64,000 nt of DNA. It comes from Arthrobacter gandavensis. GTDB taxonomy: Bacteria; Actinomycetota; Actinomycetes; Actinomycetales; Micrococcaceae. The notes beneath the pieces were generated by a model. The model had not been told where the DNA came from and made no database searches. It saw nothing but the letters and a program-made list of their open reading frames with translations. Position 1 is the stretch's first letter, and every line of letters begins with the position of its first letter. The DNA lies in the NCBI RefSeq assembly GCF_009192735.1, contig NZ_VTFU01000001.1:1-64000 (forward strand), given 5' to 3'. A program made the position numbers and the translations under genes. Shown piece by piece: positions 2,951 through 16,275 of this stretch.

Positions 2951-5900
2951 ATGAGTAGGGTTACCAAACGGCTTTCGGAGACCGTGACCCGAAACCTGCA
3001 TCCGGCGTTGCTGGCGGGTATTAGACGCCTCACCAGGCGCAGCGGCTGCACCGACTTCGGGCTGCTCAGCGTGGTGGTGCCGATGTACAACGTGGCGCCT
3101 TATCTTGAACGCTGCCTCACCAGCCTCGTGAACCAGAGCTATGCGAATTTGGAGATCATCGTCGTGGATGATGGCTCCACGGACTCATCCGTCGCCATGG
3201 CTGCCGGGTATGCGCGGTATGACCGGCGGATCCGCCTCATACAACTGCCTCACGGCGGCAATGGGCGAGCACGGAACACGGCTATCTCAGCCGCGAAGGG
3301 GAAATACCTGACGTTTGCTGATGCTGACGATGTTGTGCCAACTGAGGCATATGCACTGATGATGGCGACGCTGGCCCGCACTGGATCCGACTTCTGCGTG
3401 GGTTCGTACGGCAGGATCAGGGGCGGCAAGAGAACTAGGGTCCGCTTGGCGGAGGACGTCCATTCGCGGGAGCGTCTGCGGATTAGGGTGGCAGATCATC
3501 CGGCGGTGATTGATGACGTGTTTCTGTGGAATAAGGTCTTCCGCCGCGAATTCTGGGACCGTCATGTGGGCGCCATACCGGAGAACATCCGGTATGAGGA
3601 CCAAGAAACCACTGCACGGGCATACCTGCGCGCAGCTTCGTTTGACGTCTTGCCCAAGGTTGTCTATTGGTGGCGTATCCGCGAAGATGGTTCTTCAATA
3701 ACCCAGGCAAAGCATCTTCTCGAGGATCTCCGGGACAGGTTGGTGGTGTCCCGGGACGTCACAGCCTTATTCGAGGCGGAAGCGCCGCCGTCAGTTGCGG
3801 TGCATTGGCACCGTCGGCTAATGGAGACTGACTTGATCCCCTACATAGAGCAGGTTCCGGATGCTTCGGAGGAGTTCTGGCAGTTGCTCGGGGAGGGGGT
3901 CGGCAGTATCTACAGTGCCGGACAGCAGCACCTTCGCCACATCGATCCGCAGGCGCGCGTGTTGTTGCACCTGACAGCGGAGGGGCGGCGGGAGGATGTT
4001 CGGCGCGTTCTGGTGGACCGGATCAACAACGGCACGGCGAGCCCGCTCACCTTTGACTGCGGCCGCATTTTCGCCGAGCCGCCTTTGCTCCAGGTGCTCG
4101 CTTTCCCCGTGGACCGCCGGCTCTTGGAAGTGTTTCCCGAGCACCTTGACCTAGTGGCTGCGCTGAAACCAGCGGTTACAGGGCTCGACGGAGGTGCCAC
4201 CGTTCGCGGGTACGCATACCTGCGTAACGTGGATCTGCGCCGCACCGACGTCCACCTCACCGCAGGTGTCCAGGGACTACACGGCTTTAAGCCACTGAAG
4301 ATCCAGCGCGCCACGGACCCAGAGCTGGATGTTTCCTCCGGAGACCGTAACTGCAGCTACGCGGATGCTGCCTTCCACATCCGGCTGGTAGGACCGCTGC
4401 CGGCCGAACTAATTCTCCGCGCGGAGGTGGACGGGCACGTCGTTGAGCGAGCTGTTCCCGTACCTGCCCCAAAGCCCGTGCTGGCGCAGGCGGCGCCACC
4501 CGGCGGTCTGCAAGTCACTGCATTTGCTCCTCGTTCTACCGTGACCGCCCCGGGTAAGACTGACCAAGACGGTAACGCTACCTGTTCCGGAGTCCTGGAA
4601 CTGGTGCTAGCCGATGCCGCACCTGCGGCCGCCTACGCGCTGGTGACGTCCCGTTTCCGAATCACGGCCGGGGCCGTGGTTTCTCTACCAGGTGGCGGCC
4701 TGAGGCTGCGGTTCCCACTGGCAGGCACGCGGTGGGGGAGGGAGATGCCCGCACCGCCGTCGGGATCCTACACTCTGCGATGGAATGTGAGTGGGGAACC
4801 GGTGGGCCCCCATGATCCGGCTGTCCCCGTTACTGCCGAAGTTGCTGGGGCTTTCCGATCAGCACTGCTGCCATCCGCACGTGTATGCGGACTGCGGACG
4901 GCGGCCGGGGCCATGGCCGTCAGCATTTCTGCTCCGCTTATGGCTAATGAGACCGGTACCTTCAACCAGTACCGGTTGAGGCGCGAAGTCTTCGGTGCCA
5001 CGGCAGCCCCCGAACTAACTCCGGGAGTTGTCTTTGAGAGTTTCGGCGGGAAAAGCTGCACCGACAGTCCCAGGGCCATTTCGGATTACGTTGCCGCGTC
5101 CGGTTTTGATGAACCCCTCTATTGGTCCGTAGCTGACCGTTCCGTCTCCGTGCCGGAGTACGCTGTGCCTCTGCTGCAGGGCTCGGAACAGTGGTACCGG
5201 AAACTCGCATCCACCCGAAGGCTAGTCAACAACAACAATTTCCCCTGGTACTTCCGCAAGACCCCGGGCCAGTTCTACCTGCAGACTTGGCACGGAACCC
5301 CGCTGAAGAGAATTGGTCTGGATGCTCCACAGCGGATACTGTCCCTGTCCTACAGGGACCTGATGGCTCGGGAAGCGCAGTGGTGGGACCTGCTCCTGGC
5401 CCAGAATGACTTCGCTGCCACCATGCTTCCGCCTGCCCTGGGCTACACCGGTGAAGTGCTCACAGCAGGCTACCCCCGTAACGACTCCCTTGCCCGGCGG
5501 CTGCCCGGCATCCGTGACCGGGTTCGCAGCCTCCTTGGCATCCCGGCGGAGCAGAAGGTAGTGTTGTACGCCCCGACGTGGAGAGATAACGCCCGGGACG
5601 GAGCGGGACGCGCGGACTGGATCGGTTTCCTTGACGTTGCTGAAGCCAGCGCGCAGCTGGGGCCGGGGTGGACGTTCCTGATTCGCGGCCACCACAACGT
5701 TGCCGGCCAACGCCGCATCGGAGATCATCCCGCAGCAATTGACGTGACCGATTATCCGGAGGTCAATGAATTGTATCTGGCCTCGGATGCGCTGGTCACG
5801 GACTATTCTTCGGCTATCTTCGACTATTCCGTGCTCAAACGGCCGATTCTCTTCCTAGCTCCGGATCTGGCGGAGTACGCGAATTCTCGGGGGTTGTATC

Positions 5901-6136
5901 GGTTTCCTGCAGAGTTCCTGAGCCAGGAGCCCGTAGTTTCAACAACGGAGGAGCTCGCGGGCGCCCTAATGGGCGGGCTGATGACTTTGTGTCCTGGTTC
6001 TGCTGCCATTGCTGATCGGTTTGCCTATGCGGACCACGGCGCCGCTTCAGCTGCCGCTGCGGCCGTTCTTATGGCTGCTCCTGCCCGTTTGGGGAACGTG
6101 ACTGAGGATTGCCCACCGAAAACCAAGGACATTTGA
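2951..6136 (+). CDS. Bifunctional GT2 glycosyltransferase / TagF-like glycerophosphotransferase
   Basis: A 1061-residue protein with two enzyme modules. Residues about 38-260 are a GT-A family 2 glycosyltransferase: LLSVVVPMYNVAPYLERCL, VVDDGSTD (71-78) and the metal motif DADD (124-127). Residues about 720-1045 are a CDP-glycerol glycerophosphotransferase-type domain (PF04464): TWHGTPLKR near 780, LYAPTWRDN, IRGHHN, and ALVTDYSSAIFDY near 950. The roughly 450 residues between look like beta-rich linker domains. In teichoic acid pathways the second activity polymerises polyol-phosphate units from a CDP-polyol, and the fused GT2 would add a sugar to each repeat. No transmembrane helix is visible, so it probably works on the inner membrane face. 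The ATG start follows a weak ribosome site. Confidence 0.85.
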   Translation: MSRVTKRLSETVTRNLHPALLAGIRRLTRRSGCTDFGLLSVVVPMYNVAPYLERCLTSLVNQSYANLEIIVVDDGSTDSSVAMAAGYARYDRRIRLIQLPHGGNGRARNTAISAAKGKYLTFADADDVVPTEAYALMMATLARTGSDFCVGSYGRIRGGKRTRVRLAEDVHSRERLRIRVADHPAVIDDVFLWNKVFRREFWDRHVGAIPENIRYEDQETTARAYLRAASFDVLPKVVYWWRIREDGSSITQAKHLLEDLRDRLVVSRDVTALFEAEAPPSVAVHWHRRLMETDLIPYIEQVPDASEEFWQLLGEGVGSIYSAGQQHLRHIDPQARVLLHLTAEGRREDVRRVLVDRINNGTASPLTFDCGRIFAEPPLLQVLAFPVDRRLLEVFPEHLDLVAALKPAVTGLDGGATVRGYAYLRNVDLRRTDVHLTAGVQGLHGFKPLKIQRATDPELDVSSGDRNCSYADAAFHIRLVGPLPAELILRAEVDGHVVERAVPVPAPKPVLAQAAPPGGLQVTAFAPRSTVTAPGKTDQDGNATCSGVLELVLADAAPAAAYALVTSRFRITAGAVVSLPGGGLRLRFPLAGTRWGREMPAPPSGSYTLRWNVSGEPVGPHDPAVPVTAEVAGAFRSALLPSARVCGLRTAAGAMAVSISAPLMANETGTFNQYRLRREVFGATAAPELTPGVVFESFGGKSCTDSPRAISDYVAASGFDEPLYWSVADRSVSVPEYAVPLLQGSEQWYRKLASTRRLVNNNNFPWYFRKTPGQFYLQTWHGTPLKRIGLDAPQRILSLSYRDLMAREAQWWDLLLAQNDFAATMLPPALGYTGEVLTAGYPRNDSLARRLPGIRDRVRSLLGIPAEQKVVLYAPTWRDNARDGAGRADWIGFLDVAEASAQLGPGWTFLIRGHHNVAGQRRIGDHPAAIDVTDYPEVNELYLASDALVTDYSSAIFDYSVLKRPILFLAPDLAEYANSRGLYRFPAEFLSQEPVVSTTEELAGALMGGLMTLCPGSAAIADRFAYADHGAASAAAAAVLMAAPARLGNVTEDCPPKTKDI

Positions 6137-6419
6137 GGCCCACGAAGAATACAGATCGGTCACGGGGGAAGAATCAAACGGCAACAAGTCGGACGTATAT
6201 CTACGTGAACTACTAATAAACGCATCCCGGCCAATTTTTTTTCGCGGGCCCAAATTTTTCGGCGAATAATCCTGCCCGGGCATTGGAGACACAGCCGTGC
6301 CTGGAAACAGTGGGAAGACACCCGGGCGGCTCTCAGTATGACGTGAGCGTGGAGCGCGAGGTGCCCTAAATTACTGACCTCTAGAGCGGCCTAGACGATA
6401 TGAAGAACCGGGTTTAGGG
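6137..6419. other. Gene-free stretch, left flank of an IS110 element
   Basis: No supported gene. The stretch runs from the stop of the GT2/TagF gene to the hairpin before the IS110 transposase. It has an AT-rich part near 6215-6265 and a GC-rich part with cccgggc words. The left end of the IS110 element, and possibly part of its guide RNA gene, must fall here or just downstream, but no terminal repeat marks it. Confidence 0.4.
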
Positions 6420-6512
6420 GCTGGAACCTCCACTCTTCAAAGCAAGGACGTGGGTTACCTGCCAGACTTGGCCGACCTGCAGAGCCACATTTGAAGTCTG
6501 GGAGGTTCCAGC
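6420..6512 (+). promoter_or_regulatory. Structured leader of the IS110 transposase, hides the ribosome-binding site
   Basis: Twelve perfect base pairs join 6420-6431 (gctggaacctcc) to 6501-6512, and six more join 6435-6440 (cttcaa) to 6491-6496, closing a 50-base loop. The 3' arm carries the GGGAGG Shine-Dalgarno and the ATG follows after one base. In IS110-group elements the noncoding left end encodes the bridge RNA that pairs with target and donor DNA. This folded leader is the best candidate here for part of such an RNA, and it would also shut off translation from read-through mRNA. Confidence 0.5.
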
Positions 6513-6513
6513 T

Positions 6514-7617
6514 ATGTTCGAGCGTACAAGTGTCGGTTTGGATGTCCATGCCCGCTCCGTTGCCGGCTGCGCACTGGATACCGAAACAGGAGAAATCCTG
6601 CACCGAAAACTCACACCGGACCGAACCGAAATCCTGAACTGGATCGGCTCTCTGCCAGGACCCGTCCGGGTGGTTTACGAGGCTGGGCCCACCGGTTTCG
6701 GGCTCGCCCGGGACCTGAACACGGCAGGATTCGAAACCCTTGTCGCAGCTCCGTCCAAACTCCAGCGGCCCGCCGGTGACAGGGTGAAAACTGATACCCG
6801 GGACGCCTTGCACCTGGCCCGGCTGTTGAAGCTGGGAGAGATCACCGGTGTGACGGTTCCCTCCATCGATCAGGAAGCAGCCCGCGATCTGGTCCGGGCG
6901 CGGGAAGATTGCCGGGCGGATCTGATGCGCTCACGCCACCGGATCTCCAAACTCCTGCTGCGCCAGGGCATCGTCTATTCCGGCGGGCAGGCCTGGACCG
7001 GCCGGCACGAAATTTGGTTAAACCAGCAGCGCTTTGCCGAACCTGCCCGGGAGCTGACCTACCGGTCCTGCCTTGCCGGGATGCGGGCCATCGATGAACG
7101 CCGCCACGATCTTGATGCCGCCATCACAAGCATGGCTTTGGACAGCGAATTCACCGCTGTGGTCCAGTGCCTGGGCTGCCTGCGCGGCGTTTCAACGCTG
7201 ACCGCCTTCGGGCTGGCCGTGGAGATCGGTGGCTGGGATCGGTTCACCGGATCCAGCATCGGCGCCTACCTCGGTCTGGTCCCTTCCGAGCATTCCTCCG
7301 GGGCGTCCCGGTCCCGCGGCTCGATCACCAAAACCGGAAACACCCACGCCCGCAGACTGCTGGTGGAAGCGGCATGGCACCACCGCAGGCCCTATCTGAA
7401 CCCGTCCAGACTGATGAGGGCCCGGTGGGAGCTGGCACCCGAGGCAGCCAGGTGCCGCGGCCACGCCGGGAACCGGCGCCTGCATCAACGCTGGCTCACG
7501 TATCTGGAACACCATAAACGTCCTGTGATCGCCACCGTCGCGGTGGCCCGGGAACTGGCCGGCTGGTGCTGGTCGCTGGCCAGGATCGCCGAAGAAGGAA
7601 AAGCTCACATGACCTGA
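6514..7617 (+). CDS. IS110-family transposase (DEDD recombinase)
   Basis: A 367-residue intact protein. The N-terminal DEDD/RuvC-like domain begins with SVGLDVHARSVAGCAL and continues with VYEAGPTGFGLARDL and VKTDTRDALHLARLL, which place the acidic residues typical of the family. The C-terminal Transposase_20 domain contains LGCLRGVSTLTAFGLAVEIG and the serine-bearing region GLVPSEHSSGASRSRGSITKTG. The family performs RNA-guided, scarless recombination through a circular intermediate. Length is normal and no frameshift is seen, so it may be active. The ATG has a GGGAGG eight bases upstream, inside a hairpin. Confidence 0.92.
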   Translation: MFERTSVGLDVHARSVAGCALDTETGEILHRKLTPDRTEILNWIGSLPGPVRVVYEAGPTGFGLARDLNTAGFETLVAAPSKLQRPAGDRVKTDTRDALHLARLLKLGEITGVTVPSIDQEAARDLVRAREDCRADLMRSRHRISKLLLRQGIVYSGGQAWTGRHEIWLNQQRFAEPARELTYRSCLAGMRAIDERRHDLDAAITSMALDSEFTAVVQCLGCLRGVSTLTAFGLAVEIGGWDRFTGSSIGAYLGLVPSEHSSGASRSRGSITKTGNTHARRLLVEAAWHHRRPYLNPSRLMRARWELAPEAARCRGHAGNRRLHQRWLTYLEHHKRPVIATVAVARELAGWCWSLARIAEEGKAHMT

Positions 7618-7946
7618 TCCTCGTACCCCATGCCAGCCGGAAGGGTTCCTGAAACGTTGTCCTTGCAGCGCGTGGAGATAACTCGCGATACACCTATGGG
7701 CAGCCGGAAACGGCCACGCCCGACATTGCTAGACCAGCGATACGCTCCAGCCGAACACTTCGTCCTGCGGTAGCCAACCCGCGCATATCAGTCTGACCGC
7801 GCCGTCGCCCATGACACGCTGACCACGCATCCAGAAACCTCTCCGGCACCCAAAGGAAACGGGTGCCCGACAGCCAGTCAGGGACCCGTTTTCCCATGCC
7901 TATTGACAGGAATGATCTACATATCAGGTGTAACTCTTACGGTGGT
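7618..7946. other. Gene-free stretch, right flank of the IS110 element
   Basis: About 330 bases without a supported gene between the IS110 transposase and the next IS481 end. It contains an inverted pair around 7851-7895 (acccaaaggaaacgggt, then acccgttttccc) and the outward TTGACA at 7903. If this element is of the IS1111 subgroup, its guide RNA would lie here rather than upstream of the gene. Confidence 0.4.
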
Positions 7947-7975
7947 TGTGAACGGCGTGGCAAAAGTTAAATAAG

Positions 7976-8033
7976 CGAGGGTCTCCGGTTCGATATGGGT
8001 TACCAAACTCGTATCGGCCAACGGAGACCCTCG
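7976..8033 (+). promoter_or_regulatory. Ribosome-site-sequestering hairpin of the second IS481 copy
   Basis: A perfect 12-bp pairing joins 7976-7987 (cgagggtctccg) to 8022-8033. Further pairing of cgatatg with cgtatcg lies inside the loop. The GGAG Shine-Dalgarno (8023-8026) lies in the 3' arm, whose last base is the first base of the GTG start. The layout is the same as at 494-550, although the stem sequence differs. Confidence 0.6.
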
Positions 8034-8670
8034 TGACCCACGCTAACGCACCCCTGACCGAAACCGGACGACTTCGCCTGGCAAAACTCATTGTCGATAC
8101 CGGATGGCCGCTTCGCCGGGCCGCCGAACGCTTCAGCTGTTCACCGGCAACAGCAAGAAGTGGGCCGACAGGTACCGCTCCCGCGGTCCGGCAGGCATGC
8201 ACGATCTTTCCTCACGACCCTTGTTCTGTCCGCATCACACACCCCAGCGCACTGAACGGCGGATCATCGGCCTGCGCTTCACCCGCCGCTGGGGACCGCA
8301 CCGCATCGCCCACCACCTGCACCTGGCCCGGTCCACCGTGGAGAAAGTCCTGCGCCGCTACCGCATGCCCCGGCTCTCCCACCTGAACCAGGCCACCGGA
8401 CTGCCGGTCCGCCGGCCCAAACCCGTCCGCTATGAACATAAGAACCCCGGGGACCTGGTCCACGTGGACATCAGAAACTCGGCCGCATCCCGGACGGCGG
8501 CGGCCACAAGATGATCGGCCGTGCCGCCGGCACCCGGAACAAGACACGCACCGAGGCCAACCGAAGGCCGGGCTATGCCTACCTGCATCACGCCGTGGAT
8601 GATCACTCCCGGCTGGCCCACTCCGAGATCCTTATCGACGAGAAGAAAGACATAGCCGCCGGCTTGTGGC
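8033..8670 (+). pseudogene. IS481-family transposase, two frameshifts and truncated
   Basis: Reading starts at GTG 8033 (MTHANAPLTETGRLRLAKL). The frame is lost near 8153, where acagcaagaagtgg lacks one A relative to the expected codons for T-A-K-K-W. The second frame gives WADRYRSRG through LVHVDI and is lost near 8475, where gacatcagaaactcggc again lacks one A of D-I-K-K-L-G. The third frame gives RIPDGGGHKMIGRAAG to HAVDDHSRLAHSEILIDE, with DDE-domain motifs, and ends in a fusion with foreign DNA near 8670. The gene is dead: the C-terminal third is missing. Both losses are single A residues in purine runs, so sequencing error is a minor alternative for them, but not for the truncation. Confidence 0.8.
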
Positions 8671-8671
8671 A

Positions 8672-8791
8672 GGTCGCCTCGGTGACTTGGAGTTCCTTGA
8701 TGACTTCGATGACCGGGTGTCCGTTGTTGAGCATTTTCTGGCCCTGCCGTACTTTGGCGATGACCTGCTCGGGTGTTTGTCTGCGTGCCAT
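8672..8791 (-). pseudogene. IS3-family OrfA, N-terminal fragment
   Basis: From ATG 8791 the minus strand encodes MARRQTPEQVIAKVRQGQKM, then LNNGHPVIEVIKELQVTEAT. This is the N-terminal helix-turn-helix half of an IS3-type OrfA (TPEQ..., E-V-x-x-x-L-x-V-T-E-A-T). After VTEAT the expected aromatic YRW segment is replaced by sequence of the IS481 remnant, so the gene is truncated after about 40 codons. An AGGAGG lies about 13 bases upstream. It is non-functional on its own. Confidence 0.7.
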
Positions 8792-8857
8792 GATGCGTGA
8801 ATTTCCTCCTAAGTCCATCCTCGGACATGAAACTCACATAAACACTGGACTCCTACA
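8672..8857 (-). mobile_element. IS3-family left-end fragment
   Basis: On the minus strand the fragment starts at 8857 with TGTAGGAGTCCAGTGTTTAT, a plausible IS3-type terminal repeat beginning with TG. It continues through a leader with TTAGGAGGAAA into the start of orfA. It stops at the junction with the IS481 remnant near 8670, so only about 186 bases survive. Confidence 0.55.
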
Positions 8858-8992
8858 CGGGGCCAACCAATTCAATAAGACTTTGTGCCACCGCATCGAG
8901 GTTATACCGAGCAGAGGTCGGTATCAAACGAGCGCTCGGAATTGATTTAACTCCACGGATTGAGCTCCTCTCACCTTGAACTCTCTCACTAC

Positions 8993-9028
8993 GGCGCTAT
9001 CACATGCGCTGGTGATTCTGATAGCGCC
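8993..9028. terminator. 10-bp inverted repeat downstream of the minus-strand glycopolymer genes
   Basis: ggcgctatca (8993-9002) pairs perfectly with tgatagcgcc (9019-9028) around 16 bases. It lies about 90 bases beyond the stop codon of the 9120 gene and would form a hairpin in its mRNA. No U-run follows, so the call as a terminator is tentative. The rest of 8858-9119 holds nothing recognisable. Confidence 0.35.
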
Positions 9029-9119
9029 ATAGAATCCCTGACCGTACTGACCTGCCAGGGAGTGGCGACTCCAAAAACTCAGCGACAGTCAGATTTCGCC
9101 ACAGAGAAGCTCCAACTAT

Positions 9120-11861
9120 TTAGATGCTGAGAATAGCTTCAACCACTCTTTTACAGTTATCCGTATCGATAAAAGCGAATGTATGAGTGACTCGTGCTTT
9201 ATAACTAGCCATGGAGTTGAAGTTAGTTTCTGTGCAGGCTTGAAGTACTGCTTCTACTTGAGATAAGTCTTGTGCGACAGGTCCAAAACCATCCTTTTCA
9301 TAATCGAAGTACCCCTTCCGGTAATTGTGCTTCCCATTGAAGATCTCACTTTGGTCGAACTGATAATACAAAACCGAGCTTCCGGTCAGCGCTATATCGA
9401 ACGCAACTGATGAGTAGTCAGTTATCGCCAACTTAGTTTGGGAAAATAAGTCTTGAAGACTGATTTCGGCAGGCCGTATCATTCGCACGTGTGCTGGAAG
9501 ACTGATGTCGTACATAAATGCAGAAAGGGAAGGATGCATGACGAATACGATTTCTAGATCCATCCTGGCTGCTGCTTCCATGAGGACTGGGCTCCGTAGG
9601 AGTTCTAGCCAAGAACGACCATAAAGCGACGACTCGAAAACCGCAAGCCTTTCTTTATAGGTGGAGCAGGCTTCCATCTCAGTTTTCAAACCCTGGCGCC
9701 AGGTCGGCATTACAAGGAGATATGGGCGGACGCCGACAGGGTTGAGTCTGGATTTCCGGAGCAGCTCATCGAACCTGGGGAACCCGGTGAGTTTGGTTTC
9801 TGTGCCGCTATAGCGGTAAGGGCTATCGTCCGAAGCAATTGAATTGTACTCCTGAACGGTTGCCGTTGCGATCATAGATATAGGCTTGGGGTTGAGCCAA
9901 CGAGATAAGTCATCCTTTGTAATTCCATGCTGCAGAAAGACAATTTTACCCCGACCAGTCCCAAATCTGGACGGTGGCACTGGGAACTGCACATCAAACG
10001 TTGCATCAGATGAGATTTTGTAGGCTGCGTTCAGTGAAAGTGCCACGGCTTCTTTGGAATCTAGAGCAACCAGACGAAAGCCTTCTTCTTCAAGCCTTTT
10101 CCAGTCTGGTGACGAACGGTCCAGCAAAAACCAGGCGTTTATGTCGGGTCTTTCATTTGCAATGTAGCGATACAAGTGTTCGCCGTTGTCGTCGGCCGAA
10201 TTGGGCCGATCCATAATTAGCCACGAGTCCTTGAACTTCGCCGTTGCGCCGGCCGAAGTCGCGAACGCGATAATATTGGCGTCAGCTGCGCGTTCATGGG
10301 TTTCTCGTTTCGCGTCAAAGCGCCTGCGGACAACGCGCCGTCCAATGTTTAGAACTGCTTGGGGCGCTGCAGAAGCCGTAAGGAGTTGCTCAATTCGAAT
10401 TCGATTTTCGAGCTTGCGAGCAACCAGTTCCGCTCTTGATAGAGTACGTGGAACCGCAGGAATCTTGGATATAAGAGGGACCCGCTCTTCCAGCTTATTT
10501 CCCAGAGGTAGCTGGCTAGCAACCGGCGCAAGAATTAGCGATGCTGACTGGTTGCGCTTGCGGTCCCACCGAGGGGGACCTGCTGGACTAATCTTTGCTG
10601 GATGTGAATCTAGTCGAACGGAGATGCGGCCATTACGAGGGAGCCAGACCATTCGCTCATAAAAGAATACCACGCCGTAATAGGAGTGTGCTACAGATTT
10701 GGATTTAGTCGGTGTAACACTTGTACCGTTTATCTCGAATTCTTCGATCGGAAGATTTCCAGAGTACCCATATCCTAATTTGACAGTATGGCCAGACTTA
10801 TCGCTCCAGTTTACAACTGGTTGGAGGCGTACTCCTTGGCCTTTGAAATGTATCAGCATGGCCGTTCTAGTGATCCAGGACATCGACGTGATGTTATATT
10901 CCTGAATTGCTTCGCGATCAATGTAGCTAAAGATCTCTAATAGCAAGCTGTGGAATAAATCTAAGCTTTCCTTAGGTATCCAAGCGCTCGAGCTGTTCAT
11001 CTTCTTGTCTTCTGTCAAATACCACTGAAGATCGTATAGAACCATATTCTGAGCCCATCTTGGGACATGGCCCAAATGAGTACTCAGGTCCTTCAGTAAG
11101 CCGAGATAGCCGTATCGCAGAACTTCGTCGTATCTCTCAAGTTGGCCCCAGCTTGACTGGACGAGGGACGATCCATTACCCCGTTTGCGGTATAGGTAGC
11201 GTGCCGACGAGACGAGCCCAACGATCGGCTGTTCGAACTTACCAAGGTATCGTCCGATAAGCTCAGCATCTTCGAATGTCGGCTTGATTCGTTCGTCAAG
11301 TCGCAGGTTATGAGACTTTATGACTGCATTGCGTAGAAAAGTAGAGGCTCCACCGAGTTGCACATAATTCGGCTCTAAATTTAGGTCCACAAGCTTTTCC
11401 CCCAAGAAATATTTGGCAGCTAATGGATGCGTATCGGAGATCTTTGCCGTTTCTTCCTGCCAGATCATCACTCTCGTCGTTAGCATCGAGGCGCGATCTT
11501 CCGTATCTCTTGAAATAAAACTCGCGACACGTTCAAAGTACTCGGCCTGCAGGGCGTCGTCCGGGTCGCAAAACGTCACCCATTCATTGTTCGCCATTTC
11601 AATGCCAATATTTCGGGCAGAGGCCGGGCCGCCGTTGTCTTTTGTTGTGTGCCGTATTACTTTCGGATACTTTTTCGCCCATGTCTTGACGATGTCATAA
11701 GATCCGTCCGTGGACCCGTCATCGACAATGATAACGTCCAAGTCTTCAAAATTGTATGTCTGCCGTTCCAAGGAACGGAAAAAAGTATCAACGTATTCTT
11801 CAACTCCGTAAAGGGCGACGACAATGGAAAATAGACCCTTGGACATAGACTCCCCAGACAT
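9120..11861 (-). CDS. Second bifunctional GT2 glycosyltransferase / TagF-like transferase
   Basis: A 913-residue protein with the same two-module plan as the gene at 2951 but a very different sequence. The GT2 domain at about 10-230 has FSIVVALYGVEEYVDTFFRS, IIVDDGSTDGS (45-54) and DPDD (99-102). The C-terminal glycerophosphotransferase-type domain at about 560-900 has VFLQHGITKDDL near 640, LLVMPTWRQG, FVMHPS and AITDYSSVAFDIAL near 815. Likely role: polymerising a polyol-phosphate wall glycan and decorating it with sugar. The ATG at 11861 lacks a ribosome site. An ATG five codons later (11846) has GGGGAG three bases upstream and may be the true start. It follows the TPR gene by 25 bases, so the two are probably co-transcribed. 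Base composition is AT-rich. Confidence 0.85.
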   Translation of the reverse strand: MSGESMSKGLFSIVVALYGVEEYVDTFFRSLERQTYNFEDLDVIIVDDGSTDGSYDIVKTWAKKYPKVIRHTTKDNGGPASARNIGIEMANNEWVTFCDPDDALQAEYFERVASFISRDTEDRASMLTTRVMIWQEETAKISDTHPLAAKYFLGEKLVDLNLEPNYVQLGGASTFLRNAVIKSHNLRLDERIKPTFEDAELIGRYLGKFEQPIVGLVSSARYLYRKRGNGSSLVQSSWGQLERYDEVLRYGYLGLLKDLSTHLGHVPRWAQNMVLYDLQWYLTEDKKMNSSSAWIPKESLDLFHSLLLEIFSYIDREAIQEYNITSMSWITRTAMLIHFKGQGVRLQPVVNWSDKSGHTVKLGYGYSGNLPIEEFEINGTSVTPTKSKSVAHSYYGVVFFYERMVWLPRNGRISVRLDSHPAKISPAGPPRWDRKRNQSASLILAPVASQLPLGNKLEERVPLISKIPAVPRTLSRAELVARKLENRIRIEQLLTASAAPQAVLNIGRRVVRRRFDAKRETHERAADANIIAFATSAGATAKFKDSWLIMDRPNSADDNGEHLYRYIANERPDINAWFLLDRSSPDWKRLEEEGFRLVALDSKEAVALSLNAAYKISSDATFDVQFPVPPSRFGTGRGKIVFLQHGITKDDLSRWLNPKPISMIATATVQEYNSIASDDSPYRYSGTETKLTGFPRFDELLRKSRLNPVGVRPYLLVMPTWRQGLKTEMEACSTYKERLAVFESSLYGRSWLELLRSPVLMEAAARMDLEIVFVMHPSLSAFMYDISLPAHVRMIRPAEISLQDLFSQTKLAITDYSSVAFDIALTGSSVLYYQFDQSEIFNGKHNYRKGYFDYEKDGFGPVAQDLSQVEAVLQACTETNFNSMASYKARVTHTFAFIDTDNCKRVVEAILSI

Positions 11862-11886
11862 GTATTGATTGTGTTTTGGTCTGCCG

Positions 11887-14136
11887 TTACACGGTCAGCG
11901 ATTGGCAACAGCGGATGCGGTGCTTTAGTTCAGTGATTCGTCTGTCATCGCCCGGGGATGTTTCGGCTTCCATCAGGACGTCGAGCGCCTTCTGGTACAG
12001 CGACGCGGCTGTGTTGGGGCTCTTGCACATTTCATTGTTCCAGGCGGCGGCTTCATAAACTTGACCACGAATATTGACAAGCTCTGGTGCGGCGGTGCCC
12101 TCGTCAAGAAGACGCACTAGGTGTCCGTAATTGTGAGCTGAGCCCCTATGGTTGCCAAGTAGCTCCAGGCATGAGGCATATCCATGGACGGCACGAAGGT
12201 ACTCTGAAGTCTCTTCGAAGCCTGCAGCGCGTAGCTTGGCTGCCGTTTCAGAGAAGAAGGTCATGGCCTGCCTATACTGACCACGCTTTATGAGGCACTC
12301 ATTAATGTCTAGCTGTATCTCCAACTTCCTGTGTTGGGAATGGCCTACGGATACTTCTAGCGATTCAAGGGCATGAGCATAGGATTTATGGGCTTCATCG
12401 TAGTCTCGAAGGTCCCTATGCGAGTCTCCTATTCGTCGAAGGACGCTTATTCTGAAGCTGAGGTTTTGTGGAAGATCAGGTAAGAATCTTTCTATCGAGA
12501 CATACATACTAAGGGCATCACCAACTTTGCCTTGCCGGTACAGACGGCGCCCTAGGCCGTAGCGTGTCTTCAGGCTAAGGAGATGTGTGTCGCCAAAAGC
12601 TTTTACGACGTCTCGGTAAAGGCCCTCAAAATCAGACTCATTGATGCTATTTGGGTCAGCGGGGTCGGTTAATGATGTGAGCGCATAACGAGCGATTATT
12701 GTTTTCTCGTGATGCGGACCGAGTGTGTGTTTCATGCGTGGTACGAGCTCGCGCAGCCGCAGAAGGGCATGATCGTTCTTGTTTTCATATGCATCTACGA
12801 GGCACAGCCCGAGCTCATGAGCTAGATTGTCAGCGGGTGTGGCGCCTAGGGCTTCCTCAAGGAGCTCCATCGCAACCACTCTTAGTGCCCGCGACTCAGC
12901 CGGGCGTGCGCTAGCAAGGAGTAGCTCCGCTTCAGTGTCCATTAGACGAGGAAGCGCGGATGACTCGATACCGAGTGACATTTGGGCAGCTCTACGAGCA
13001 TTTGACACTGTCTCTAAGGCTGACAAGGAGTTAAGCTTCGCGGCCAGCCGCCCATAGGTGTGAGCCGCCATAAGAGTTTGAAACCGCATTCCAGTGGGCT
13101 TTGCTGGGACGGCATCCGAGAGCCGGCGGAGAGCGATGTATGCCGCCTCATAGTCGCCCAACTCCAGCAGCGAGTATGCCTTGCCTTGTAGCGCCAACTC
13201 ACCCTTAGTCCCGTTGAGGTTCGATTGGATTTCCGATCCTTGGGGCAGAGAACTGAAGATTTGCGCAGCGCGTTCCGTCTCATTGTCGAGGTATGCCATC
13301 CACCCTCTGAAGAAAGTCTTTGACCAATCGCTTTCCTCATGGTCGATGCAAAGTGTAGCCTGGGAGCCCTTGACTGCCTCGACGAAACTTGTACCGCTGG
13401 CACCGGCTGAGTTCCATGCTTGCATGTACCAGAGTACATTCTGGCTTGCGTGATGGAACTGCGGAATCTCTTCAATAGTTTTGCTCGACTCGGCGAAGCG
13501 GCCTAGATTCGTTAGGGTCCACGCCTTTTGGATAAGAACATCCGAGGTCTGAAGTGGAGTAAGAGTGAGTGGATTGGCGAGCAGGTTGCTGATTTCCTTC
13601 AAAGCCAAGTGAGAATCGCCTGCAACGTTTAGGAACTTTATCCTTGCTAGGACAACTGAAGTTTCTTCGTAGACATCTTCAGCACAATCCTTTTCCTTGG
13701 CGCTCAGAAACCCTGCTGCAGCATGGCAACCCTCATTATCTGCCACTTTCTCAGCGAGCATGACCAAAGCCGTCCCCCGGCGGCTGCGCAAAGATTGGGC
13801 ATCACATACTAGGCTTTGAAGATCCGCGGTCGCTTGAGAAGAACTTCCCGTTGTCATTTGAATCCGAGCCCTAGCCAGTCGAAGTACATCCGAATCGTCC
13901 CTCGAGAGCGATTGTTTGTGAACGGAGGCAGCATCCAACAGTCCAATACTCCGTTTGAGTTTCCCGTTCCAGGCCAAGGTGTCGGCATAAGCAATGATTG
14001 CGTCAACTGATAGGAGCTCGCCCCGCGCGGCCCCGCGTAATTCCTCAAGTACAGATATTTCTGTCCTCGTATCTGACGCCACGTCTGATGCAGGTAATTG
14101 AGCTGTTTGACTTCTGAGTGCACCCATACATTCCAT
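11887..14136 (-). CDS. Large TPR-repeat protein
   Basis: A 749-residue, apparently all-helical protein with no signal peptide or membrane helix. Degenerate tetratricopeptide-like repeats run through most of it. The clearest are in the C-terminal half, such as GLGRRLYRQGKVGDALSMY, RRIGDSHRDLRDYDEAHKSY and DINECLIKRGQYRQAMTFF, with the kinesin-light-chain-like spacing of about 40 residues. No enzymatic domain was recognised. TPR arrays are protein-binding scaffolds, and the tight coupling with the TagF-like gene downstream (25-base gap) suggests a partner or regulator of the polymerase. That function is inferred only from position. The ATG at 14136 has no good ribosome site, and an ATG three codons later is an equal candidate. 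Confidence 0.75.
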   Translation of the reverse strand: MECMGALRSQTAQLPASDVASDTRTEISVLEELRGAARGELLSVDAIIAYADTLAWNGKLKRSIGLLDAASVHKQSLSRDDSDVLRLARARIQMTTGSSSQATADLQSLVCDAQSLRSRRGTALVMLAEKVADNEGCHAAAGFLSAKEKDCAEDVYEETSVVLARIKFLNVAGDSHLALKEISNLLANPLTLTPLQTSDVLIQKAWTLTNLGRFAESSKTIEEIPQFHHASQNVLWYMQAWNSAGASGTSFVEAVKGSQATLCIDHEESDWSKTFFRGWMAYLDNETERAAQIFSSLPQGSEIQSNLNGTKGELALQGKAYSLLELGDYEAAYIALRRLSDAVPAKPTGMRFQTLMAAHTYGRLAAKLNSLSALETVSNARRAAQMSLGIESSALPRLMDTEAELLLASARPAESRALRVVAMELLEEALGATPADNLAHELGLCLVDAYENKNDHALLRLRELVPRMKHTLGPHHEKTIIARYALTSLTDPADPNSINESDFEGLYRDVVKAFGDTHLLSLKTRYGLGRRLYRQGKVGDALSMYVSIERFLPDLPQNLSFRISVLRRIGDSHRDLRDYDEAHKSYAHALESLEVSVGHSQHRKLEIQLDINECLIKRGQYRQAMTFFSETAAKLRAAGFEETSEYLRAVHGYASCLELLGNHRGSAHNYGHLVRLLDEGTAAPELVNIRGQVYEAAAWNNEMCKSPNTAASLYQKALDVLMEAETSPGDDRRITELKHRIRCCQSLTV

Positions 14137-14277
14137 ACTACAGGCTGAGGCTGCATTGTTGATATCCGTATGACTGGGCAGCCACTATGCATCAGGGGAT
14201 TGCGGCAGTGCCTCGGAGGATTATCGCTTCAACAATTTTTTAGAGTAATGACTATCGACGTCATTTTGGTATCTGTC

Positions 14278-14991
14278 TTAATAGGGATGCTTACGGAGGG
14301 CATTATTAGCTCGGACCAGATCGTCTGGGCTGTCTATTTCTATGGCTAAGTATCTACTCGTATCCACAGGAAAGTATGTAACGTTGTCGAGCATAATCGT
14401 ATTTTCCATGGCGCGTTCAAAGTAGTCGTGCTCGCTGACCCTTTCTAGACGCTTAATCAGCTTCTTCTTATTCTTCTTTGAGACATAGTTAATCCCGACT
14501 GCCTCGCCTTCAGCCACATCAACCGAGACTGTTTTGGAAAGCTTGTCGATGTTGCCCCGTGCATCGGTTGTGTACTTTATCTCTTCATCAGCAACGCGGG
14601 AATCATTTACAGCAACAACGGACTGACCTGCAGCTATGAACGGCTTCATGAGATCAAGTAGCTGTGGATCAAATACGACGTCGCCATTGAGCCAAAGAAC
14701 CCCTCCCTTTGTGGTGTTTTTCAGAGCTTTGAGTAGGCTCTTGGATGTGTTGGTCTGGTCGTAACTTTCGTTGTAAACAAATGCCACGTCTGGGACGTGC
14801 TCCATGATCAAATCGAGTTTATATCCGACAACTATTGTGAGTCGAAGTCTACCTCCAAACGCAATTCTAAGGTTCTGCACCTGTTGCTGAAGGATCGTCC
14901 GTCCGTCGCCTAGGTAAGTAAGGGGCTTGGGGTGAGGGCGAGCTAGTCTGGTTCCAAGCCCAGCGGCAAGGATGACAACCTGAACGGTCAA
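14278..14991 (-). CDS. LicC-like nucleotidyltransferase
   Basis: A 237-residue single-domain NTP transferase. It has the pyrophosphorylase signature VVILAAGLGTRLARPHPKPL (5-24), NESYDQTNTSKSLLKAL (74-90), LNGDVVFD (101-108) with the metal-binding aspartate, and EIDSPDDL (217-224). The T-N-x-x-S-L segment is typical of LicC/phosphocholine-cytidylyltransferase-type enzymes, which make CDP-activated small alcohols. Here it most likely supplies a CDP- or NDP-activated building block for the TagF-like transferases. Whether the substrate is choline phosphate, a polyol phosphate or a sugar phosphate cannot be told. The TTG start overlaps the epimerase stop as TTGA, and an AGGGG lies eight bases upstream, so it is translationally coupled. 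Confidence 0.75.
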   Translation of the reverse strand: MTVQVVILAAGLGTRLARPHPKPLTYLGDGRTILQQQVQNLRIAFGGRLRLTIVVGYKLDLIMEHVPDVAFVYNESYDQTNTSKSLLKALKNTTKGGVLWLNGDVVFDPQLLDLMKPFIAAGQSVVAVNDSRVADEEIKYTTDARGNIDKLSKTVSVDVAEGEAVGINYVSKKNKKKLIKRLERVSEHDYFERAMENTIMLDNVTYFPVDTSRYLAIEIDSPDDLVRANNALRKHPY

Positions 14992-16148
14992 GAGCGATGC
15001 CCCTGGGGGTGTGTAGAGACTGATGTTCTGTTGGCAATGTCAAAAAGATTCCCAACCGCGGCAACGCTCCTGGCCGCAGCAGTCCCGTCCCCGTAGGGAT
15101 TCATCGCCTCAGCCATAGAGTTGAAGTGCTCCTGGTCGTGCAGCAGGCTGGCAACTTCCGCAACAATTCGGTCCTCATCGGTGCCGATCAATTTCACGAC
15201 GCCAGCCTCAACGGCTTCAGGGCGCTCAGTGTTCTCCCGCATCACGAGGACGGGCACGCCGAGGCTGGGCGCCTCTTCCTGGACTCCGCCGGAGTCGGTC
15301 AGGATGATGTGTGCCAATGAAAGCAGGCGGGTGAACTCGCCGTACTCCAGCGGTTCAGTGATCAGGACGTTGGTTAGGCCCTCCAAGTGGGGGAGCACCG
15401 CCTCGCGGACAACGGGGTTGGCGTGAATTGGCAGCACAATGGTCAGGTCGGGCTCGGCCGCAGCAATGCGGGCCAGCGCACGGCCGATGCCCTGCATTCC
15501 TTCACCCTGGTTTTCCCTGCGGTGGGTGGTGACCAGGAGGACCTTCCGCCCGGAAGCCGCGAGATCCTCCAAGACCGGGTCCACAAAAGAAATGTTCTTC
15601 TCCACCGTCGCCAGCAGGGCGTCAATGACCGTGTTGCCCGTCACCACAATGTTCTCGGGATTGATGTTTTCGGCCAGCAGGTTCTGCCGGCTGCCCTCGG
15701 TGGGAGCCAGATGCAGCGATGCGATCTGCGAGGTGATCTTACGGTTGCCTTCCTCAGGGAAAGGGGAGGAAGGATCGCCGCTGCGGAGGCCTGCCTCAAG
15801 GTGCACCACGGGGATCCCGTGATAGAAGGCCGCCATGGCCGCTGCGGTGGACGTGGTGGTGTCGCCTTGGACAATCACCGCGTCCGGGCGGTTGACGCTG
15901 AAGAGCTTTTCGAGACCGTCAATGGTGCGGGCCAGGATGCCGTTCAGGGACTGTCCTGGCTCAAAAATGTTGAGGTCATGGTCCGGCTCAATCCCGAAGA
16001 GATTGTTTACCTGGTCCAGCATGGAACGATGCTGTCCCGTGACCGTGACGAAGCAGTCCAGCGCGTCGGATTTCTTGAGCGCAGCCACAATCGGCGCCAT
16101 CTTGATGGCCTCGGGACGCGTCCCGTAAATAGGCATGACAACCGGCAA
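14988..16148 (-). CDS. wecB: UDP-N-acetylglucosamine 2-epimerase, non-hydrolysing
   Basis: A 386-residue enzyme of the WecB/MnaA family that interconverts UDP-GlcNAc and UDP-ManNAc in the cytosol, the first step towards ManNAc-containing linkage units of teichoic acids. Seen: YGTRPEAIKMAPIV near the N-terminus, VTGQHRSMLDQ, QGDTTTS, HLEAGLRSGD, PEEGNRKITSQIA, VTTHRRENQGEG and TDSGGVQEEAPSLG. TTG 16148 is chosen because GGGGG sits seven bases upstream and the product then starts four residues before VMPIYGTRPEA, as in homologues. A TTG seven codons earlier is possible. The gene heads a two-gene operon with the nucleotidyltransferase. It is GC-rich like the core, which places the island boundary near here. 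Confidence 0.9.
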   Translation of the reverse strand: MPVVMPIYGTRPEAIKMAPIVAALKKSDALDCFVTVTGQHRSMLDQVNNLFGIEPDHDLNIFEPGQSLNGILARTIDGLEKLFSVNRPDAVIVQGDTTTSTAAAMAAFYHGIPVVHLEAGLRSGDPSSPFPEEGNRKITSQIASLHLAPTEGSRQNLLAENINPENIVVTGNTVIDALLATVEKNISFVDPVLEDLAASGRKVLLVTTHRRENQGEGMQGIGRALARIAAAEPDLTIVLPIHANPVVREAVLPHLEGLTNVLITEPLEYGEFTRLLSLAHIILTDSGGVQEEAPSLGVPVLVMRENTERPEAVEAGVVKLIGTDEDRIVAEVASLLHDQEHFNSMAEAMNPYGDGTAAARSVAAVGNLFDIANRTSVSTHPQGHRS

Positions 16149-16275
16149 AATACAACCCCCAACACGCAAACAATGTGCAATCTAATGCCCTAGCATAGCG
16201 GACTACTTGTTTTGGGAGTTTTCAGCCTGTGGCGGAGATTCTTTTACGAGGGTCGCGAGCGCGGAACTGCGCTGA

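Follow-up and report, generated by a model that had tools for sequence, protein, structure and literature searches.

Gene content of the locus

In this study, we analysed a window of 64,000 nucleotides of Arthrobacter gandavensis (assembly GCF_009192735.1, contig NZ_VTFU01000001.1, positions 1 to 64,000), with attention to the gene of a stand-alone tetratricopeptide repeat (TPR) protein that directly precedes the gene of a GT2–TagF-like transferase, here named TagFa (Table 1). The order on the minus strand is wecB, nucleotidyltransferase, TPR protein and GT2–TagF. An earlier note on this DNA had described a 749-residue TPR protein lying 25 bases upstream of a second GT2–TagF protein, next to a nucleotidyltransferase coupled to wecB, and these points held: the pair was confirmed by open reading frames (ORFs) and Pfam, the wecB and nucleotidyltransferase ORFs overlap by 4 bases, the wecB model scored 461.6 bits (cut-off 210.15) with a Pfam Epimerase_2 match, and a genome search returned two PF04464 proteins, TagFa and the convergent TagF2.

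Pfam placed a GT2 domain at residues 12-122 and PF04464 at residues 545-911 (4.8e-25) of TagFa. The TPR protein matched TPR_12, TPR_2, TPR_8 and TPR_19 above their cut-offs, and helical-repeat-type families were the only ones among its Pfam matches up to E = 1. Because its highest 19-residue hydropathy is 1.09, we assign it no membrane segment, in agreement with the cytosolic location that had been proposed for it. The GC content is 50–53% over the pair and 59–72% in the DNA that follows from position 16,000, and a scan for promoters and terminators found sites no more numerous than in shuffled sequences. Two WhiB genes identify the host as an actinobacterium, the WhiB family having been found, among 14 control genomes, in Corynebacterium only.

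Distribution of the TPR–TagFa pair

The earlier note had called for a search for conserved TPR–TagF pairs in actinobacteria. When the TPR protein of the window was used as a query on 148 sampled relatives, it matched three genomes besides its own among the 147 others. G001 and G009, which belong to the window's genus, gave 26–27% identity, and the third match, from another family, was weak. In both same-genus genomes the TPR gene directly precedes a 916-residue GT2–TagF that is 54% identical to TagFa. The search was then based on a family sample of 395 genomes and a phylum sample of 396, both drawn from larger groups with one genome per species. TagFa as a query matched 63 of the 395 family genomes at 1e-30, and its own subtype (above 1000 bits, the next score being 802) occurred in four, namely G000 (the window genome), G001, G009 and G303, the last from another genus and carrying a 752-residue TPR gene immediately upstream of its TagFa. 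A profile built from the four TPR proteins (A3) reached 1089–1213 bits in these same four, and no other family genome gave more than 29.7 bits; among the phylum genomes, the window's own protein alone stood at that level, all others scoring at most 47 bits. As far as sampled, the TPR and TagFa genes thus share one distribution. An invariant Cys-Cys (C743 C744) near the C-terminus was seen in all four TPR proteins.

We fetched 36 stretches around selected TagFa matches in addition to the first three, and the TPR gene was the nearest upstream ORF in 4 of 35 GT2–TagF ORFs longer than 700 residues (34 in the fetched loci plus that of the window), with gaps of 25 bases in the window and 21, 68 and 83 in the other three genomes, as measured from longest-ORF starts. 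The pair is therefore conserved but rare, and its recurrence in three other genomes makes it more than chance. The possibility that it is unique to this genome was rejected, the same pair being present in 4 of the 395 family genomes. A TPR protein query of plasmids gave no match, and a scan of the genome contigs with the same protein revealed no relative; the corresponding scan with TagFa gave two matches, to the GT2 part only. In a Pfam scan of 37 ORFs of these loci, which took in some neighbours rather than every one and included a TPR control (L040), the control's eight families appeared in no second member among the best 25 of 51 families listed, so that a TPR family matched by one other member could be hidden. 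No TPR was found among those neighbours scanned in the order-level loci, where only some were covered. A TPR N-terminal extension of the 1404- and 1451-residue order-level ORFs was considered and rejected, as no TPR was present there.

These searches also bear on whether the TPR protein controls the expression or activity of the locus, as a regulator or sensor in the cytosol, for instance of an FxSxx/NB-ARC-like kind. Such a role would fit a weak FxSxx_TPR similarity of 38.5 bits and low-scoring phylum matches that lie mostly over the C-terminal repeats. However, neither Pfam nor NCBIfam placed a DNA-binding, kinase or NB-ARC domain in the protein, a match to the MalT model (0.045) covers just the short stretch of residues 196-246, and no full-length TPR relative away from TagFa was found in the 395 family and 396 phylum genomes. 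Membership in the FxSxx-COOH system itself was rejected, the score falling far below the cut-off of 300 for NCBIfam NF040586 and reflecting generic TPR similarity. We regard a regulatory role as quite improbable, and the two outcomes that the earlier note had named as fatal to its idea, a pair confined to this genome or a TPR protein from an unrelated regulatory family, were not what we observed.

Evolution of the pair

In a tree of 41 GT2–TagF rows, the four TPR-paired TagFs formed one clade with a support of 100/100, and pairing called for one change of state, a value that 0 of 500 shuffles equalled. Within this sample, the pairing thus goes back to a single event. It has outlasted a TagFa divergence of more than 1 change per column, and the identity between the three lineages is 52–55% for TagFa and 22–26% for the TPR protein. 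Between G001 and G009, omega was 0.226 for the TPR gene and 0.051 for TagFa at a dS of about 0.75–0.78, compared with 0.213 for the neighbouring TagF2, and the nonsynonymous divergence (dN) of the TPR gene was about four times that of TagFa. Both genes are maintained under purifying selection between these two genomes.

Outside the pair, the upstream neighbours differ: the window has wecB and the nucleotidyltransferase, G001 and G009 have a divergently oriented DUF6270/Asp2-like gene, and G303 has a 598-residue ORF without a Pfam match. The pair therefore travels as a unit. This speaks against chance neighbours, in which the TPR gene would be a passenger with no functional tie. Although the rarity and single origin of the pair, together with the insertion-sequence DNA in the window locus, would suit such a passenger, adjacency was kept across three neighbourhoods despite the low identities given above, and both genes are under purifying selection. 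Chance adjacency is already disfavoured and is, to us, the least credible of the explanations considered. Further relatives of the Asp2-like/DUF6270 proteins of G001 and G009 were noticed in other loci.

Movement as a cassette within a variable locus would also fit if the TPR protein served the locus rather than TagFa directly, docking the nucleotidyltransferase, modifying enzymes or the ABC exporter, with adjacency arising from a shared serotype-like cassette. The ABC transporter and polymer-modifying and activating enzymes have been named as possible TPR partners (PMC5974469), and the fast divergence of the TPR gene between G001 and G009 would agree with changing partners. On the other hand, the nucleotidyltransferase and the exporter occur in genus genomes that lack this TPR, whereas TagFa accompanies it in four of four cases. 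Because TagFa is the one gene seen tracking the TPR gene, docking and regulation are both the less likely accounts; we consider docking unlikely, though less so than regulation.

TPR modules joined to TagF domains elsewhere

TPR domains are present in most TagF-like capsule polymerases (PMC5974469). In Cps1B, the TPR domain mediates oligomerisation, and its removal by a cut after residue 858 of 1246 abolished dimer-to-trimer assembly (PMC5974469). TPR-truncated Cps3D and Cps7D became more distributive and lost poly(Gro3P) elongation (PMC11666461). In the passages cited, all CpsD homologs analysed so far hold TPR and catalytic modules in one enzyme (PMC11666461), and Campylobacter HS1.09 has the same TPR–TagF–GT-B plan (PMC11924219).

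Fusions were also found close to the window. PF04464 occurred in 16 of the 29 genomes of the genus sample, and 8 of the 12 proteins scanned, that is 8 of the 29 genomes, were fused TPR–TagF(WHG)–GT-B proteins of 1248-1277 residues (Table 1), in loci that resemble that of the window in having wecB and a nucleotidyltransferase adjoining. In the other four genomes with PF04464, the proteins are of the GT2–TagF kind without an upstream TPR, the window's TagFa excepted. G009 carries both the split pair and a fused protein. The fused genus proteins present the Gram-negative Cps3D/Cps7D plan within a Gram-positive wall-polymer locus. The earlier note had held that a TPR array tied to a TagF is not part of the textbook teichoic acid pathways; this is fair for Gram-positive pathways, but fused coupling is known in Gram-negative capsule polymerases and is present in the genus itself.

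A GT2–TagF(QHG)–TPR fusion was detected on a Citrobacter freundii plasmid, with 40% identity to TagFa in the TagF domain and 32% in the GT2 part. This plasmid was typed as conjugative, IncFIC, and carries capsule-type export genes, with a Stealth protein adjoining the fusion. Three further plasmid TagF proteins have no TPR: a second Citrobacter protein of 1067 residues, one of 1173 residues from Klebsiella oxytoca, which gave no GT2 match, and one of 887 residues from Limimaricola. Relatives of TagFa thus exist with and without a TPR module, fused or apart.

Predicted activity of TagFa

TagFa carries the motif VFLQHGITKD at residues 641-650, compared with LQTWHG in TagF2, and a DxD-type motif, DPDD, at residues 99-102 of its N-terminal GT-A domain. 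His645 and His776 are invariant in 8 aligned TagFs and are equated with H444 and H584 of TagF by motif and position only. A survey of 117 ORFs of the fetched loci, a set including fragments and the same gene from overlapping loci, found QHG in 57 of 60 TagFa-like and WHG in 43 of 45 TagF2-like ORFs; among the 12 ORFs that best matched the fused domain, WHG occurred in 10 and QHG in one.

WHG has been ascribed to glycerol-3-phosphate polymerases, both TagF and TagF-like, and QHG to transferases of hexose phosphate (PMC11666461), and GT-A domains are reported, in the passages cited, only with beta-linked polymers (PMC5974469). Our best guess from these motifs is therefore that TagFa is a beta-glycosyltransferase joined to a sugar-1-phosphate transferase. 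A TagF polymerase in the strict glycerol-phosphate sense, as the earlier note had called it, is unlikely for a QHG protein; the TarF model gave 30 bits on TagFa against a cut-off of 550, and the WHG motif is not carried. Judged by motif, TagF2 is more likely than TagFa to be a polyol-phosphate transferase.

The description of the nucleotidyltransferase as LicC-like stood in part. It is a nucleotidyltransferase, MobA-like by Pfam, and its relation to LicC is loose at most: its solved relatives at 1e-3 were one PntC fusion and two inositol-phosphate cytidylyltransferases (4.8e-6 to 9.6e-4), and no LicC was among the solved structures matched at this threshold, so that any relation would be distant. 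Since no TagD-type cytidylyltransferase in the genome exceeded its cut-off (best 60.9 against 165.4 bits), this PntC/inositol-phosphate-like enzyme may supply the CDP-linked donor of the locus.

Wider locus and export context

The typical order of the genus loci is ABC exporter, 635-residue glycosyltransferase, UDP-ManNAc dehydrogenase, TagF2, another TagF (TagFb), a third TagF of the WHG type and nucleotidyltransferase, with wecB last and often the fused TPR–TagF–GT-B protein before it. One end of the locus is marked, in the window and in several genus loci, by wecB with a DAK2-type gene beyond it. A relative of the nucleotidyltransferase was present in all 12 genus loci examined and also close to the pair in G303. 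In the two loci L007 and L008 of genomes G001 and G009, TagF2 and TagFa touch in the same convergent order, whereas in the window insertion-sequence DNA separates them; among plasmids, its IS110 element was matched best, at 72.5%, in Arthrobacter. Contig C4 starts at the first base of the window with an IS481-type transposase fragment, and the first half of contig C11 holds an exporter with a 90% identical permease, an ATPase, glycosyltransferases, a nucleotide-sugar dehydrogenase and an LCP gene. The gene order in relatives suggests that the ends of C4 and C11 belong together.

Table 1. Locations of the genes and elements considered in this study (window positions unless a locus is named; aa, residues)
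Feature	Location	Strand	Source
Another IS481-type transposase fragment, at the contig end	2-538		
TagF2, second GT2–TagF protein, 1061 aa, WHG type, convergent with TagFa	2951..6136	+	
Mobile-element insert separating TagF2 and TagFa	6137..9119	.	
IS110 transposase gene within the insert	6514-7617		
IS481-type fragmentary stretch within the insert	about 8033-8945		
TagFa, GT2 (GT-A)–TagF-like bifunctional transferase, 913 aa, QHG type	9120..11861	-	ORF list, Pfam
25-base gap between TPR and TagFa genes	11862..11886	.	ORF list
Stand-alone TPR protein, 749 aa, acidic, without membrane segment	11887..14136	-	ORF list, Pfam
MobA-like/PntC-like nucleotidyltransferase, 237 aa	14278..14991	-	Pfam, solved-structure matches
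wecB, UDP-GlcNAc 2-epimerase, 393 aa, at one end of the variable locus	14988..16169	-	
Fused TPR–TagF(WHG)–GT-B polymerase	L150:3045-6848		
Fused TPR–TagF(WHG)–GT-B polymerase	L151:5227-8973		
Fused TPR–TagF(WHG)–GT-B polymerase	L152:5495-9241		
Fused TPR–TagF(WHG)–GT-B polymerase	L153:5520-9266		
Fused TPR–TagF(WHG)–GT-B polymerase	L154:5254-9084		
Fused TPR–TagF(WHG)–GT-B polymerase	L155:4911-8672		
Fused TPR–TagF(WHG)–GT-B polymerase	L156:2915-6703		
Fused TPR–TagF(WHG)–GT-B polymerase	L157:4675-8508		
GT2–TagF(QHG)–TPR fusion, 1394 aa, Citrobacter freundii plasmid	L166:6878-11062		
Asp2-like (accessory Sec) and DUF6270 protein, 811 aa, divergent from the pair	L008:6278-8713		
Relative of the L008 protein (79% identical), 811 aa, divergent from the pair	L007:6471-8906		

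A split polymerase as the proposed explanation

We think it fairly probable that the TPR protein and TagFa work together as the subunits of a single polymerase, in which the design of the TPR-bearing TagF-like polymerases is divided over two genes. The proposal builds on the adjacency and co-occurrence of the two genes, the single clade of the paired TagFs, the constraint on both genes, and the fusion of TPR with TagF seen both within the genus and in a TagFa relative from a Gram-negative bacterium. In such an arrangement, TagFa would extend a lipid-linked wall polymer by alternate additions of a sugar, through its GT-A domain, and a sugar-1-phosphate, through its QHG TagF-like domain, while the TPR protein, itself non-catalytic, would bind TagFa from the cytosol. 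By analogy with the fused TPR domains, the TPR protein may set oligomerisation, acceptor hand-over and processivity, and hence chain length; alternatively, it may dock TagFa to neighbouring enzymes. The polymer would leave through a TagGH-like ABC exporter, and the LCP protein of contig C11 would attach it to the wall. Binding of the two proteins and control of chain length are thus predicted, and the scaffold idea of the earlier note, in which the TPR array sets chain length, recruits the enzyme or holds the assembly together, is a reasonable one in this conditional sense.

Several observations weigh against a split polymerase. For 31 of the 35 related GT2–TagF ORFs, the closest ORF upstream was not a TPR relative, so that the view that TPR goes with all TagFs was rejected, and because of these 31 ORFs and the absence of TPR in 3 of the 4 plasmid TagF proteins scanned, this kind of enzyme does not generally need the module. 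Cps1B without its TPR domain kept its activity and product in vitro (PMC5974469). The four pairs are not four independent events, as they share a single origin and two of them are closely related, with 93% TagF identity, and the counts derive from a scoring in which most genomes had two first-look candidates scored, so copies could be missed. A relationship of the TPR protein to the fused TPR domains was rejected, the hhalign probability being 15% with generic similarity only; profile A3 does not match the Citrobacter freundii fusion, in which the TPR is C-terminal while the TPR gene comes first in the window. Lastly, the single-sequence structure model of the TPR protein was poor (pLDDT 44).

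TPR–TagF coupling is already known in fused form; what is new here is that the TPR module has a fast-evolving gene of its own, beside a QHG-type GT-A/TagF enzyme in an actinobacterium. Among the matches listed in the open-licence PMC literature, no stand-alone TPR gene paired with a TagF is described. More tentatively, since we hold it possible rather than probable, the free and fast-evolving TPR subunit may be a detachable processivity or acceptor module of a Gram-positive wall-polymer polymerase, the catalytic subunit staying conserved and fused forms occurring in sister species. Some TPR truncations of fused enzymes were inactive, aggregated or unpurifiable (PMC5974469, PMC11666461); a natural split would allow the TPR to be removed, swapped or titrated with the catalytic domains untouched. 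The pair bears on the control of polymer length and enzyme hand-over in wall teichoic acid-like pathways, of which types II–IV are called uncharacterized in a figure legend (PMC11666461), and it brings actinobacteria into the known connection between the capsules of Gram-negative and the wall polymers of Gram-positive bacteria.

Comparison with known systems

With reference to the TagF-like capsule polymerases, TagFa has PF04464 with the two conserved histidines and an N-terminal GT-A domain with a DxD-type motif. Such polymerases use activated sugars or CDP-polyol to make a polymer with phosphate bridges, and TagFa probably builds a phosphate-linked surface polymer too. It is like the group 2 enzymes Cps1B, CslB, Cps12B and Ccs2 in joining GT-A and TagF-like domains in an ORF of more than 2,500 bp, and, if contigs C4 and C11 join as gene order in relatives suggests, in belonging to an ABC-exporter locus (PMC5974469). 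Unlike them, and unlike most TagF-like capsule polymerases, it has its TPR not on the same polypeptide but in a separate upstream gene, and the host is an actinobacterium; no sequence relation was seen between the TPR parts, and the product of TagFa is a predicted one. Nor is this a Gram-negative group 2 capsule locus: the genome carries two WhiB genes, an exporter ATPase nearest to the TagH/Wzt models and an LCP gene. Like Cps3D, Cps7D and HS1.09 (PMC11666461, PMC11924219), the window pair has the TPR preceding the TagF; unlike them, it has GT-A rather than GT-B and QHG rather than WHG, and is encoded by two genes.

For the TagF of Staphylococcus epidermidis, we know of no TPR partner. Its structure (PDB 3l7i) aligns with TagFa over the N-terminal domain at 2.8e-14, and both proteins are TagF-like C-terminally; unlike TagFa, it is a glycerol-phosphate polymerase with WHG (PMC11666461).

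Separate TPR proteins are otherwise exemplified by the AlgK/Pel type in synthase-dependent exopolysaccharide systems, which belong to the Gram-negative envelope and use other synthases. In such synthase-dependent systems, as in the window pair, the TPR part is sometimes expressed apart from the catalytic domain (PMC11666461).

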